From: Rickettsiales bacterium
Lineage (GTDB): Bacteria; Pseudomonadota; Alphaproteobacteria; Rs-D84
Assembly (NCBI GenBank): GCA_031266915.1
Contig: JAISAB010000001.1
Span: forward strand, 1 to 37,993
DNA length: 37,993 bases
Reading direction: 5' to 3'
The notes under the pieces were generated by a model that was not told where the DNA came from, made no database searches, and was given only the letters and a program-made list of their open reading frames with translations. Numbering within the stretch: position 1 is the first letter of the stretch; each line of letters opens with the position of its first letter. Shown in pieces: positions 9,978-37,881 of this stretch. A program made the translations under genes and the position numbers.

Positions 9978-10077
9978 CGTGAATCGTAATTCGTGACTCG
10001 TGATTCGTAAAAAAATATTAGTCTTTAGTCGATAGTCAATAGTAATACTATAAACTGAACATTAATGACTAATATTT
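9978..10077. repeat. Mixed TCGTGAY and TAGTNNN heptamer tract
   Basis: TCGTAAT/TCGTGAC/TCGTGAT units at 9983-10008 are followed by TAGTCTT/TAGTCGA/TAGTCAA/TAGTAAT units and their inverse. The tract fills the gap between the Yip1-like terminator and structured RNA A. Confidence 0.85.
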
Positions 10078-10103: not shown

Positions 10104-10109
10104 TACAAT
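10104..10109 (+). promoter_or_regulatory. -10 box (TACAAT) of structured RNA A
   Basis: TACAAT lies 7 nt upstream of the first helix of RNA A, the same placement as the perfect TATAAT boxes of copies B and C. No clear -35. Confidence 0.5.
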
Positions 10110-10115
10110 GCGTCC

Positions 10116-10293
10116 TGTGGTGGTGTATTGCCATCACACGGGGCTAGTAACCCTAACACAAAGCGTCCGAAGGACGTAAAACCTCCAAGCCATGGTTGGA
10201 GGGCAATGCCATAAGGACCTGTCCGAAAACATTGCGCTATTCTTTGTGATAGTTACTACCTCCAACCGCCTTTATATTTAAATGCGGTTTTTT
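10116..10293 (+). ncRNA. Structured RNA, copy A (unrecognised family)
   Basis: Predicted by eye from comparison with copies B (14641-14828) and C (34457-34644). Helices: P0 10116-10123/10131-10138; closing helix P1 GGGGCTAGTAAC (10140-10151) / GTTACTACCTCC (10252-10263); P2 CACAAAG (10157-10163) / CTTTGTG (10242-10248); hairpin P3 CGTCC-GAA-GGACG (10164-10176); hairpin P4 CCTCCAA/TTGGAGG (10182-10202); P5 GCAATG/CATTGC (10203-10235) enclosing GGAC-CT-GTCC. It ends in terminator stem AACCGC/GCGGTT plus T-run. P1, P2 and P3 covary between copies. GGTTGGAGG (10194-10202) can also pair with CCTCCAACC (10259-10267), which would block the terminator stem. Unlike B and C there is no HTH gene downstream. 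It does not match my knowledge of 6S RNA, tmRNA, RNase P RNA or SRP RNA. Confidence 0.8.
10264..10293 (+). terminator. Intrinsic terminator of RNA A
   Basis: AACCGC (10264-10269) / GCGGTT (10284-10289), extended by TTTA pairing inside the loop, followed by a T-run. Confidence 0.85.
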
Positions 10294-10295
10294 CG

Positions 10296-10382
10296 TGGGG
10301 CACGTGATTATTTTTCTCTCCTCCAGTTAAAAAGGGTCTGCGCCCCACCCATAGGTTTATTTGCGGCAATCCAGTAAGACAC
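10296..10382 (+). other. Unassigned spacer with a GTGGGGC...GCCCCAC inverted repeat
   Basis: GTGGGGC near 10297 pairs with GCCCCAC near 10342 around a loop of about 40 nt that contains CTCTCCTCC. No open reading frame. It directly follows the RNA A terminator and may be a second small RNA or a processing or regulatory hairpin. Confidence 0.35.
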
Positions 10383-10536
10383 TAGCAGATAGTCATTAGT
10401 CTATAGTCTTTAGTGAGTAGTGATTAGCGCATAGTTTACAGTATGATAACTAAATCACTATACACTATTGACTAAAGACTACAGACTAATGACTATTTGT
10501 TATACGCTATTTGCTATCTGCTATACGCTAGTGGTT
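10383..10536. repeat. TAGTNNN palindrome joined to a TTTGCTA-family tract
   Basis: TAGTCAT/TAGTCTA/TAGTCTT units are followed by their inverse (to about 10495). TATACGCTA and TTTGCTATCTGCTA units of a second heptamer family then run to the porin stop codon. Confidence 0.85.
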
Positions 10537-14400: not shown

Positions 14401-14619
14401 CTATTCTTTGTTTTGCTCCAAATATTTTATGCCGGCGGCGAACAGCCGGGTGGCTGTCTGCTGCGATAGAACGTCCCGGCCGTGTTCAAAACGAACGATT
14501 TCTTTTCTATCCAGCCCCAAATATTTTGCCAAGCGCCGCCGCCCGACCTTGGTTTCCAATCGCGCGACACGCAGCGCGCATCCCAGATAAGACATTCTCA
14601 TCATCCTTATGCTTTTCAT
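14401..14619 (-). CDS. Small XRE-like helix-turn-helix protein (module B)
   Basis: The 72-aa protein is essentially one Cro/CI-type HTH: RLAKYLGLDRKEIVRFEHGR (about 29-48) gives helices 2 and 3, followed by ATRLFAAGIKYLE. Its central part is nearly identical to the protein at 34213-34434 while the first 15 residues differ. It has a strong ribosome-binding site (AAGGAGGAT, 6 nt). The gene starts 21 nt after the terminator of structured RNA B, so it is expressed by readthrough of the RNA or from the same promoter. No effector domain or toxin motif is present. A DNA- or RNA-binding regulator of the RNA module is inferred. Confidence 0.8.
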   Translation of the reverse strand: MKSIRMMRMSYLGCALRVARLETKVGRRRLAKYLGLDRKEIVRFEHGRDVLSQQTATRLFAAGIKYLEQNKE

Positions 14620-14640
14620 GACATCCTCCTTTTTTGGTTC

Positions 14641-14669
14641 AAAAAAACCGCGCTTTTAAAAAGGCGGTT
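14641..14669 (-). terminator. Terminator between RNA B and its HTH gene
   Basis: GGCGGTT (14663-14669) with AACCGC (14646-14651) read on the minus strand, followed by T7. It lies 21 nt before the HTH start codon. Confidence 0.85.
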
Positions 14670-14828
14670 GGAGGTGATTACTACAACAAGTATAGCATGC
14701 TTATTCGGTAAACCTTATTCGCATCCTCCAACCAATGGTTGCGGATGCATAGGCTTTTACAGTTCCGCATGCCTGCGGAATAACTTGTTCAGAGGTAATC
14801 AGCCCCATGGCGGCAACACGCCGCCACG
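14641..14828 (-). ncRNA. Structured RNA, copy B, leader of an HTH gene
   Basis: Runs from just after a perfect TATAAT (minus strand, 14835-14840). P0 TGGCGGC/GCCGCCA (14820-14826/14808-14814); P1 GGGGCTGATTAC (14795-14806) / GTAATCACCTCC (14670-14681); P2 AACAAGT/ACTTGTT; P3 TTCCGCA-GGCA-TGCGGAA; P4 GCATCC..CAACC/GGTTG..GGATGC; terminator AACCGC/GCGGTT with T7 (14641-14651 and 14664-14669). About 188 nt. Compared with copy C almost all sequence is identical except P1, where three positions changed on both strands so that pairing is kept. GGTTGGAGG in P4 can alternatively pair with CCTCCAACC at the terminator, a possible antiterminator. It could be a cis-acting leader, a free small RNA, or both. 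Confidence 0.85.
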
Positions 14829-14834
14829 ATTGGT

Positions 14835-14840
14835 ATTATA
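14835..14840 (-). promoter_or_regulatory. Perfect -10 box (TATAAT) of RNA B
   Basis: TATAAT on the minus strand, conserved with flanking GTGTATAAT in copy C. Expected transcription start about 7 nt downstream, just ahead of P0. No clear -35. Confidence 0.7.
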
Positions 14841-14872
14841 CACGAATTTATTTGGATAATCTACAAATAATC

Positions 14873-14992
14873 GATAGTCATTAGTCTATAGTCTTTAGTG
14901 AGTAGTGCTTAGTTTATATTGATTAATGCATAGTTAAACACCTAACTATAAAACTAAGCACTAATCACTATGCACTATTCACTACTGATTAC
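14873..14992. repeat. TAGTNNN heptamer palindrome upstream of RNA B
   Basis: TAGTCAT/TAGTCTA/TAGTCTT/TAGTGAG units and then their inverse. The same arrangement is found upstream of RNA C (34687-34770). Confidence 0.85.
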
Positions 14993-15006
14993 CCCCCCAT
15001 CCCCCA

Positions 15007-15059
15007 AGTTTTTGTAACGCTGACGCTAACAAAAACTGTCCCCCTTTATCAAGGGGGAC
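15007..15059. repeat. Two adjacent hairpins shared by both HTH/RNA modules
   Basis: AGTTTTTGT/ACAAAAACT (15007-15037) and GTCCCCCTT-TATC-AAGGGGGAC (15038-15059). The same pair occurs at 34789-34842. Confidence 0.85.
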
Positions 15060-15184
15060 AAGAGCTAAACCAAAGTTGAAAAGAGCTGAACCAAGAAGGA
15101 TAATGACTGAAGCAAGAGGATAAGAGCTGAAACAATGGGGAAAAGTGCCAAAACAATGGTGATAAGATCCGAACCAAAGGTGGC
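15060..15184. repeat. 21-bp tandem repeat, six copies
   Basis: Units begin at 15060, 15081, 15102 (20 bp), 15122, 15143 and 15164, with consensus near AAGAGCTGAACCAAGRNGGA. The array ends at AAGTGTCAAGTC. The homologous array at 34844-34883 has two units, so copy number varies between modules. Confidence 0.85.
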
Positions 15185-15489
15185 AAGTGTCAAGTCTTGT
15201 GTCGGTGAAATGTTCTAGGCTGCTGCCCCTTTCATTTCACGCCCATTCCTAGCAACCTGGCGCCAGCCACTCTTGTTTCATACTTGTTCCTAGAACTTGA
15301 CACTGGCCCCTCTTGTTAAAGAGGGGAGAATTTTCCGGCAACTTGTTGCCGATGAAAATTCGGGGAGATTGCTGGTTAATCAATAGTCAGTAGTCGTTAG
15401 TCATTAGTGAACGTGTCGCGCAACCTGTCCACCGGAGCCTTGGCGAAGGTGGAAGCGCGACGGCTTTATTAACTATTGACTAATGATTA
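15185..15489. repeat. Shared hairpin block and heptamers between module B and infB
   Basis: No gene. AAGTGTCAAGTCTTGTG and several CTTGTTCCTAG-like units (15185-15300) are followed by hairpin CCCCTC/GAGGGG (15307-15326) and a long hairpin GAATTTTC+CGGCAAC / GTTGCCG+GAAAATTC (15328-15361). TAGTNNN units and a CTTGGCGAAGG element (15428-15452) follow. The hairpin pair is repeated at 35005-35061. Confidence 0.8.
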
Positions 15490-34007: not shown

Positions 34008-34190
34008 TGAGTCGTAATTCGTGACTCGTGACTCGTAAAAAAACATTAGTGAATAGTGCTTAGTTTATAGTGTATAGTTAAATAGTTTACTAATAACTAA
34101 ACACTATGCACTAATCACTATTCACTACTTGTTATTCGTTATGCACTAGTGTTTTTATGAATCACGAGTCACGAATTACGAATCACGAAA
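34008..34190. repeat. TCGTGAY and TAGTNNN heptamer palindrome before module C
   Basis: TCGTAAT/TCGTGAC units (34009-34040), TAGTGAA/TAGTGCT/TAGTTTA units and their inverse (34046-34130), then inverse TCGTGAY (34158-34190). The two families are nested as one large inverted repeat. Confidence 0.85.
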
Positions 34191-34214
34191 AACCGCCCCG
34201 GTCGGGGCGGTTTT
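34188..34214 (-). terminator. Terminator of the module C HTH gene
   Basis: AACCGCCCC (34191-34199) / GGGGCGGTT (34204-34212), loop GGTC, with A/T runs on both sides. Confidence 0.88.
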
Positions 34215-34434
34215 ATTCCGCTTTGTTTTGTTCCAAATATTTTATGCCCGCGATGAACAGTTTGGTGGCCGTCCGTTGCGATATGACGCCCCGACCGCGT
34301 TCAAAACGGATGATTTCTTTTCTATCCAGTCCCAAATATTTTGCCAAGCGACGCCGCCCGACCTTGGTTTCCAGTCGCGCGATGTGAATCGCGTATCCAA
34401 AATAAACCGTTTCTATTGTTTTTACACGTTTCAT
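34213..34434 (-). CDS. Small XRE-like helix-turn-helix protein (module C)
   Basis: The 73-aa protein is a paralogue of the protein at 14401-14619: ARLETKVGRRRLAKYLGLDR is identical, followed by IRFERGRGVISQRTATKLF. The first 18 residues differ. HTH of Cro/CI type, no effector domain. The ATG at 34434 has AAAGGAGG 6 nt upstream; a start at 34458 would translate the ribosome-binding site. The gene begins 22 nt after the terminator of structured RNA C. Together RNA and protein form a repeated unit whose role is unknown. Confidence 0.8.
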   Translation of the reverse strand: MKRVKTIETVYFGYAIHIARLETKVGRRRLAKYLGLDRKEIIRFERGRGVISQRTATKLFIAGIKYLEQNKAE

Positions 34435-34456
34435 AATATCCTCCTTTCTTAAGTTC

Positions 34457-34487
34457 AAAAAAACCGCGCTTTTAAAAAAAGGCGGTT
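34457..34487 (-). terminator. Terminator between RNA C and its HTH gene
   Basis: GGCGGTT (34481-34487) and AACCGC (34462-34467) read on the minus strand, then T7 (34457-34463). Confidence 0.85.
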
Positions 34488-34644
34488 GGAGGTAAACACT
34501 ACAACAAGTATAGCATGCTTATTTGGCAAGCCTTATTCGCATCCTCCAACCAATGGTTGTGGATGCATAAGTTTTTACAGTTCCGCATGCCTGCGGAATA
34601 ACTTGTCCGGGTGTTTAGCCCCATGGCGGCAACACGCCGCCACA
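34457..34644 (-). ncRNA. Structured RNA, copy C, leader of an HTH gene
   Basis: Same layout as copy B: TATAAT at 34651-34656, P0 34636-34642/34624-34630, P1 GGGGCTAAACAC (34611-34622) / GTGTTTACCTCC (34488-34499), P2 ACAAGT/ACTTGT, P3 TTCCGCA/TGCGGAA, P4, a GGC-TT-GCC mini-hairpin, terminator AACCGC/GCGGTT with T7. Relative to B, P1 differs at three base pairs with both partners changed, direct evidence for the helix. The GGTTGGAGG/CCTCCAACC alternative pairing is kept. Confidence 0.85.
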
Positions 34645-34650
34645 ATTGAT

Positions 34651-34656
34651 ATTATA
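34651..34656 (-). promoter_or_regulatory. Perfect -10 box (TATAAT) of RNA C
   Basis: Conserved position and flanks with RNA B. Transcription is expected to start near 34644. Confidence 0.7.
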
Positions 34657-34686
34657 CACGAATTTATTTGGATAATCTACAAATAA

Positions 34687-35111
34687 TCGATAGTCATTAG
34701 TGAATAGTGCTTAGTTTATAGTGCATAGTTAATAGTTCACTAATCACTATGCACTATTCACTAGTGATTAAAAAAACCGCCATCCCCCAAGTTTTTGTAA
34801 CGCTGACGCTAACAAAAACTTTCCCCCTTTATCAAGGGGGACTAGTGCCAAACCAAGATGAACAAGAGCTGAACCAAGTGGACAAGTGTCAAGTCTTGTG
34901 CCAATGATCTGTTCTGGGCTATCGCCCATCTTGTTTTATGCTCGTTCCCTGTATCTGACACCTGCCCCTCTTGTTTCACGCTTGTTCCTAACACTTGACG
35001 CTGGCCCCTCTTGTTAAAGAGGGGAGAATTTTCCGGCAACTTGTTGCCGATGAAAATTCGGGGAGATTACTGGTTAGTCAATAGTCATCTGCCTATGGTC
35101 AGTAGTGTTTT
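34687..35111. repeat. Module C flank: heptamers, hairpins and 21-bp repeats
   Basis: No gene. TAGTNNN palindrome (34687-34770); AGTTTTTGT/ACAAAAACT hairpin and the CCCCCTT/AAGGGGG hairpin (34789-34842); two 20- to 21-bp units (34844-34883); AAGTGTCAAGTCTTGTG; CCCCTC/GAGGGG and GAATTTTC..GAAAATTC hairpins (35005-35061). Same order as 14873-15370, shorter. Confidence 0.85.
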
Positions 35112-37232: not shown

Positions 37233-37447
37233 TACTTTACCGGGTCATATCCGAATCCGCCGCCGGGCCGGCAACGCGACATACGCTTGAGCCCCATCCA
37301 AGTCCCGCAGATGAAACCGTATTTTTCAATTGCTTGACGAGCGTATTCGCTGCAGGTCGGCGTAAAGCGGCACACGGCCCGCCCGCCCGTCAAGGGCGAT
37401 ACGGCCAGCTGGTATAGTCTGATAAAGAGGATGGCGATATGTTTCAT
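37232..37447 (-). CDS. yidD: Membrane protein insertion efficiency factor YidD
   Basis: The 71-aa protein has all YidD landmarks: IRLYQLAVSPLTGGRAVCRF (about 9-28), PTCSEYARQAIEKYG, and CRPGGGFGYDPV at the C-terminus. It is a small inner-membrane-associated protein aiding YidC-dependent insertion. It is downstream of rnpA on the same strand, the usual rpmH-rnpA-yidD-yidC order, with a 100-bp TAGTNNN palindrome between. yidC would be expected next but accB is found instead. Confidence 0.94.
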   Translation of the reverse strand: MKHIAILFIRLYQLAVSPLTGGRAVCRFTPTCSEYARQAIEKYGFICGTWMGLKRMSRCRPGGGFGYDPVK

Positions 37448-37562
37448 ATCAGTAAATAGTCATTAGTCAGTAGTCTATAGTCAATAGTTAATAGTTAATA
37501 GAGCCGTCGGCTTCGCCGACACATTCACTAATGACTAACGACTATAGACTAATGACTATTGG
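37448..37562. repeat. TAGTNNN palindrome between rnpA and yidD
   Basis: TAGTCAT/TAGTCAG/TAGTCTA/TAGTCAA units, a GCCGTCGGCTTCGCCGAC hairpin and the inverse units. The tract encodes the last residues (NSH) and stop codon of RnpA. Confidence 0.85.
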
Positions 37563-37881
37563 CTAATTCCTTCAGCGCCTTGGCCATTTTTTTTACCCCG
37601 GCCGGCTTGGTCGCATCCAGAATCAGGCGCCGGGCGATAAAGATATAATCTGTATCGGGCCGCATCATAGGTTCGTTTTTGTGAATCCAAACGCGCAGCA
37701 GGCGCTTGGCGCGGTTGCGGTCGACAGCCAATTTGAACGTCCGTTTGGTTGCTATCAGGCCATAGCGCGCGTCGTTCGGAAAAATGGTCGGGCGCGCCTT
37801 GGCGATAAAATATCGTCCGATGACAATCGGCGCGCTGTCGTCGGTCGCAAAGTCCTTGTGTTTTTTTATTGTGTTTCTCAT
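37549..37881 (-). CDS. rnpA: Ribonuclease P protein component
   Basis: The 110-aa basic protein contains the RNR-like signature KLAVDRNRAKRLLR (about 51-64), between a beta-strand with RYGLIATKRTF and DYIFIARRLI. It binds the RNase P RNA for tRNA 5' maturation. The ATG at 37881 gives the expected length. rpmH, normally just upstream, is not in the 110 bp remaining. The C-terminal ANSH and stop derive from a TAGTCAT repeat. Confidence 0.93.
   Translation of the reverse strand: MRNTIKKHKDFATDDSAPIVIGRYFIAKARPTIFPNDARYGLIATKRTFKLAVDRNRAKRLLRVWIHKNEPMMRPDTDYIFIARRLILDATKPAGVKKMAKALKELANSH

Follow-up and report, generated by a model that had tools for sequence, protein, structure and literature searches.

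Numerous copies of a probable C4/sRNA-Xcc1-type antisense RNA leader with private target codes and an overlapping terminator in a Rickettsiales genome

C4 is the kind of self-targeting antisense RNA that phage P1 uses to stay dormant. The order of elements in P1 is promoter, a1, b1, C4 and then a2/b2 at icd, this second target pair, located at the ribosome-binding site, being the carrier of repression. Other RNAs with related features are sRNA-Xcc1, which is annotated as a virulence-linked trans-acting sRNA, the trp-type attenuators, which use a 1:2 + 3:4 versus 2:3 pairing logic, and the cuckoo-type anti-Shine-Dalgarno sRNAs, which expose a CCUCC motif in loops. The C4 RNAs of P1 and P7 are cut by RNase P at a GGW sequence and act through their a' and b' elements (PMC5320573). 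Most known C4 antisense RNAs are single switches of phages; the one report of many copies in a bacterium concerns the Group 1 C4-like sRNAs of Acinetobacter baumannii, of which one genome contains 21 (PMC5320573).

The window analyzed here (the whole stretch of 37,993 nucleotides from contig JAISAB010000001.1 of a Rickettsiales bacterium, assembly GCA_031266915.1) contains three copies of an element that is very probably an antisense RNA leader of the C4/sRNA-Xcc1 type. This assignment is based on its architecture and on detectable homology, despite Rfam scores below the cut-offs and the missing a2/b2 pair. The elements of copy 1, and the other two copies with their genes, are the following:

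10104-10109, plus strand: -10 box TACAAT of the RNA's own promoter, from aligned upstream sequences (TATAAT-like at a similar distance in most copies)
10116-10138, plus strand: 5' hairpin P0, corresponding to hairpin 1 of c4-a1b1, from the sequence and a weak RF03163 match at this place in sister copies
10140-10153, plus strand: target hairpin with loop element a, TAGTAAC (10145-10151), from a GGRG/CYYC stem that covaries between copies and from a:a' pairing
10157-10163, plus strand: target element b, CACAAAG, from pairing with b' at 10242-10248
10164-10176, plus strand: spacer hairpin P3, CGTCCGAAGGACG, from a helix of covariance model R1 and the alignment
10182-10191, plus strand: competitor strand 1, the 5' arm of P4, from covariation with 10194-10202
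10194-10202, plus strand: strand 2, GGTTGGAGG, shared by P4 (as its 3' arm) and the closing helix (as its 5' strand), from covariation and folds
10203-10235, plus strand: hairpin 1 of the C4 domain, stem GCAATG/CATTGC, from the RNAalifold consensus and the single-sequence fold
10236-10252, plus strand: hairpin 2 of the C4 domain, its loop holding b', CTTTGTG (10242-10248), from covariation (CTAT/ATAG to CAAT/ATTG) and b:b' pairing
10252-10258, plus strand: a', GTTACTA, copy-specific complement of a
10259-10267, plus strand: strand 3, CCTCCAACC, 3' strand of the closing helix, its AACC doubling as terminator base, from covariation
10268-10270, plus strand: GCC tail (RCC, as at the 3' ends of C4 and tRNA), unpaired in the fold
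10264-10293, plus strand: intrinsic terminator AACCGC..GCGGTT with U-run, fold of -9.8 kcal/mol, z -4.4
10294-10351, plus strand: second conserved hairpin, its internal loop containing UUUCUCUCC, present after gene-less copies
14642-14846, minus strand: copy 2 (C4 domain 14733-14663), leading an HTH gene
14401-14619, minus strand: gene for a 72-aa HTH protein behind copy 2 (Pfam HTH_31, E=2.6e-4, below cut-off)
34458-34663, minus strand: copy 3 (C4 domain 34551-34481), leading an HTH gene
34213-34434, minus strand: gene for a 73-aa HTH protein behind copy 3 (Pfam HTH_3, E=4.6e-4, below cut-off)
10194-10202 with 10259-10267, plus strand: exactly matching pairing strands of copy 1
14733-14725 with 14674-14666, minus strand: exactly matching pairing strands of copy 2
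34551-34543 with 34492-34484, minus strand: exactly matching pairing strands of copy 3

A consensus scanner found no full sigma-70 match at 10104-10109. Copies 2 and 3 lie in a duplicated block of about 1 kb (14406-15410 and 34221-35107, 73-90% identical) that comprises the HTH gene, the RNA leader and upstream repeats. Intergenic TAGT/ACTA repeats with a 14-nt period are found at 10010-10060, 10374-10535, 34010-34150 and 37440-37570, forming long imperfect inverted repeats, many of which adjoin RNA copies.

The complementarity between GGTTGGAGG and CCTCCAACC, which had been proposed in a preliminary description, is exact in all three window copies. A perfect complement of at least 9 nt was also reached in 13 of 300 dinucleotide shuffles of 10112-10296, so that a 9-nt complement is not rare in a single sequence and a comparative test, based on conservation and covariation, was needed. 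For this, 69 elements were aligned with MAFFT without structure, the pairing between GGTTGGAGG and CCTCCAACC not being used. In this set 98.9% of the cells of the 9-bp closing helix are paired, and 46 cells, spread over six of the nine pairs, carry two-sided changes, against a mean of 8 cells in shuffles and at most 8 in slid registers. Its covariation score is 0.273, versus 0.088 in shuffled (none of 500 as high) and 0.015-0.128 in slid controls, and the duplex energy is -17.3 kcal/mol within the own copy and about -14.3 kcal/mol across copies (none of 20,000 permutations as low). The variants found among copies include GGTCAGGAGG:CCTCCTGACC, GGCAGGAGG:CCTCCTGCC, GGCCGGAGG:CCTCCGGCC and GGTTGGGAG:CTCCCAACC; judged by this comparative sequence evidence, the closing pairing is a helix under selection. 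The position originally given to CCTCCAACC has to be amended in two respects. It was said to span the 3' strand of hairpin P1, but the strand making the long-range pairing is GTTACTA (10252-10258), which lies immediately 5' of CCTCC and has as its partner the loop of a 5' hairpin; the GGRG/CYYC stem of that hairpin pairs locally. Its overlap with the first terminator arm holds, but just for its last 3-4 nt (AACC), shared with the arm AACCGC.

Folded alone, 10194-10270 forms the closing helix and two hairpins with the RCC tail unpaired (-28.5 kcal/mol, z -3.7), in agreement with the RNAalifold consensus, which consists of a nine-pair closing helix and two hairpins; the fold of copy 3 is less clean than the others. 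The closing stem with its two hairpins measures 67-80 nt here, against about 77 nt expected of a C4 RNA. The aligned copies begin with GG and most end in an RCC or RCT tail, the tail being GCC or ACC in 74 of 100. Copy 1 has no relevant Rfam match at gathering score or E<10, and the relationship emerged only through divergent sister copies. Among these, sRNA-Xcc1 (RF02221) matches with 40 bits (E=6e-6), its model positions 1-87 being aligned in full and its outer helix coinciding with the closing helix. A search of the genome gave 27 sRNA-Xcc1 matches with E<=0.03, the best with 46 bits (E=2.4e-7), below the gathering score of 53 bits. The c4-a1b1 model (RF03163) gave 17 weak matches, of which at least nine lie at the 5' ends of copies, its best score of 24.1 bits not reaching the gathering score of 46.7 bits; the C4 model itself (RF01695) matched none of the copies in the genome search, its best hit (19.9 bits) being elsewhere in the genome.

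The arrangement is shared with P1/P7 C4 (RF01695 and c4-a1b1, RF03163), in which promoter, hairpin, a1 loop, b1 and C4 domain follow in the same order. Also common to both are a closing stem that starts with GGU and ends with CC-RCC, two hairpins, and the location of b' in the loop of the second hairpin and of a' just 5' of the 3' closing strand. Strand 2 (10194-10202) begins with GGU, like the RNase P site of C4 (PMC5320573). However, the closing helix has 9-10 bp instead of about 17, the a2/b2 pair known at the start site in P1 is absent here as a rule, and the terminator follows the C4 domain and shares a strand with it, whereas in P1 a terminator-like hairpin is located between b1 and C4. 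With sRNA-Xcc1 (RF02221) the copies share outer helix, hairpins and length, but they differ in the terminator overlap and in their neighbours, since sRNA-Xcc1 is linked to symE (PMC12444791) or antirepressor-like genes and the copies described here to exported proteins and HTH regulators. The A. baumannii Group 1 RNAs are likewise present in many copies per genome with a variable a' region, although here at least 72 are found in 1.09 Mb, they have their own a/b target in cis and most are fused to a terminator and a gene. At ten sRNA-Xcc1 loci of other Proteobacteria (L242-L251), an upstream a1 with 7-10 nt of complementarity is present in nine, and a2/b2 often lies near the start of the next gene, as in phage P1. 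For these reasons sRNA-Xcc1 itself looks C4-type, which suggests that it could be a C4-type element with a1/b1 targets of its own; in the literature searched no published statement to this effect was found. In addition, the P1 c4 leader (L241, 3231-3312) scores 35 bits with Rfam isrK, suggesting that isrK may be related to c4-a1b1 leaders.

The two parts of the antisense code are private to each copy. The mean run of complementarity is 6.7 nt for a' with its own a and 3.2 nt across copies, and 6.1 versus 2.8 nt for b' with b. The (a',b') combinations are distinct in 54 of 55 tested copies. Only two of 2970 ordered comparisons, which represent one recently duplicated pair, match across copies in both parts, and because of this trans-regulation between copies was rejected as main role. 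The target of copy 1, TAGTAAC..CACAAAG, occurs once in the genome, in its own leader (the antisense itself aside), and no trans target was found in the genome apart from that leader. Second targets (a2/b2) by the start codons are not above the cross-copy level (within 60 nt; p = 0.20 and 0.31).

The closing strand GGTTGGAGG covaries with two partners, the 5' arm of P4 and CCTCCAACC (0/20,000 permutations each), its energy with the P4 arm being -13.7 kcal/mol in the own copy and -11.2 kcal/mol across copies. Because GGTTGGAGG also pairs with the upstream arm, a competition of 1:2 + 3:4 against 2:3 is supported structurally. The closing helix is stronger than the P4 pairing in 81 of 99 elements, and all 100 distinct elements retain, beside the U-run, a GGY to which the closing strand can base-pair by its end. 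Calculated energies (pseudoknots excluded) favour P4 + terminator by a mean of 6 +/- 3.7 kcal/mol, which would be compatible with a default-off leader; in copy 1 the two states are close (-46.4 vs -47.2 kcal/mol, calculated in the same way). The pairing logic is that of trp-type attenuators, although no leader peptide is seen here and the 2:3 helix serves to close an antisense RNA.

The antiterminator switch suggested in the preliminary description is supported as far as its anatomy goes, the pairings 1:2, 2:3 and 3:4 being mutually exclusive and conserved. It does not apply to the element at 10194 itself, which has no downstream gene to control, and it was incomplete, since it did not foresee that the helix first of all closes a C4-type antisense RNA. 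In the proposed mechanism, for which the chances appear about even on the sequence evidence, strand 2 lying on the upstream P4 arm would leave strand 3 free for the terminator and transcription would stop (1:2 + 3:4), while formation of the closing helix (2:3) would block the terminator base and RNA polymerase would read on into the gene. In this 2:3 state RNase P could release a C4-like RNA at GGU, a cleavage of the leaders that we infer just from the GGU and RCC sequences. The released or nascent antisense would use its two-part code to pair with a/b in the transcript to which it belongs, so that each copy would be a self-addressed feedback switch; the gene-less copy 1 would act solely as a free RNA. 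Taken as a whole, a C4-type leader with switch and self-addressed feedback is the reading that we consider likely.

Subfamily 1 includes 34 copies with an ORF and ribosome-binding site shortly 3' of the terminator. The start codon of gene-linked copies is mostly 23-37 nt past the terminator, leaving no obvious room for a second promoter. Signal-peptide-like starts, called by a simple hydrophobicity rule, are present in 24 of the 34 downstream proteins, compared with seven of 40 long ORFs of the window; the remaining proteins of this subfamily are mostly small HTH proteins, and some Xre-type regulators are among the downstream genes. About 11 copies, copy 1 (10194-10267) among them, have no convincing gene and are followed by the second conserved hairpin instead. 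This hairpin, found behind copy 1 and about ten other gene-less copies, carries UUUCUCUCC, which is complementary to GGAGAGAAA start sites, for example in L016.

A different explanation for the competing strands would be a ligand-binding riboswitch, in which the conserved junction is the aptamer, the closing helix its antiterminator, and no antisense action takes place. The terminator and competing strands directly ahead of genes, the AATA-type bases that are conserved and unpaired in the first hairpin, and the very high copy number would agree with it. Nevertheless, almost every copy has its own version of a/a' and b/b', with complementarity preserved, which an aptamer would not need, and this, together with the sRNA-Xcc1 homology, the P1 c4 layout and the existence of gene-less copies, makes a riboswitch improbable, with roughly one chance in its favour for many against. 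We also regard as unlikely, if a shade less so, that CCUCC is an exposed anti-Shine-Dalgarno sequence repressing translation of the downstream gene or of other mRNAs, like a cuckoo-type sRNA. Of this earlier suggestion a weak copy-specific signal persists, since a'-CCUCC pairs with the start region at -11.5 kcal/mol in the own copy versus -10.7 kcal/mol across copies (p about 0.002), with 11 contiguous pairs in copy L096, but CCUCC:GGAGG pairing is generic. The own/cross effect is small and driven by few copies, CTCCC or ACTCC replaces CCUCC in some subclasses, copy 1 has no gene, and the predicted C4 fold places CCUCC within the closing helix and not in an exposed loop as in cuckoo-type sRNAs.

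The abundance of the copies (54 to 72 per Mb), the truncation of one of them by another repeat (L101:1886) and the richness of the genome in other repeats could also indicate selfish or decaying REP-like terminator repeats with no regulatory function. We judge this very improbable given the compensatory changes in helices, the private codes, the fixed distance to genes and the occurrence in every one of the 13 genera of the family.

The C4-type leader, the preferred reading, is one of a large set in this genome. Its copies number 12 by BLAST, 54 by the covariance model R1 (in 1.09 Mb) and 56 confident ones by R2, a second model of the 3' domain, which on eight further genomes of the family gave 1 to 49 copies each. 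Another 16-17 copies, detectable only with Rfam sRNA-Xcc1 and mostly of a second subfamily (GGTCGGGG:CCCCGACC), raise the total to at least 72 leaders of two subfamilies in the 1.09-Mb genome. Of 183 genomes of the family, 171 have R1 matches, and such matches also occur in several further families of the order. Among the named records that carry the motif are Candidatus Enterousia, other gut MAGs and 'Rickettsiales' MAGs.

One tentative interpretation, to which we give slightly less than an even chance, is the genome-wide domestication of an antisense module of the phage lysogeny type as about 70 private-code leaders, each independently switching one exported-protein or regulator gene by antisense-domain folding versus termination. 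This uncultured, reduced-genome gut lineage (the family of Candidatus Enterousia) appears to control a sizeable part of its exported proteins via dozens of non-cross-reacting leaders. These would provide many natural RNA pairs that are orthogonal to each other, would allow the evolution of antisense specificity to be tested and are a candidate mechanism for one-by-one control of surface proteins.

A phage location was also considered and rejected, because the only IMG/VR match (L240) is on a contig that looks bacterial, where the copy precedes a transporter-like gene. Pattern matches in MAGs named Roseomonas, Proteobacteria and Phyllobacteriaceae (L190, L192 and L205) may be due to chance or misbinning. 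Members of the second C4-type subfamily (L252-L268, GGTCGGGG:CCCCGACC) are terminator-fused and mostly ahead of signal-peptide proteins. In L101 (1886-2036) the 5' half of the copy is replaced by a TAGT-type repeat, as in a decaying element. Finally, six short copies lack P3 (L121, L123, L124, L118, L108) and continue with a CTTCC..GGAAG hairpin and a GGGGG..CCCCC terminator, two of them preceding GyrA/ParC-like and phosphofructokinase-like ORFs.
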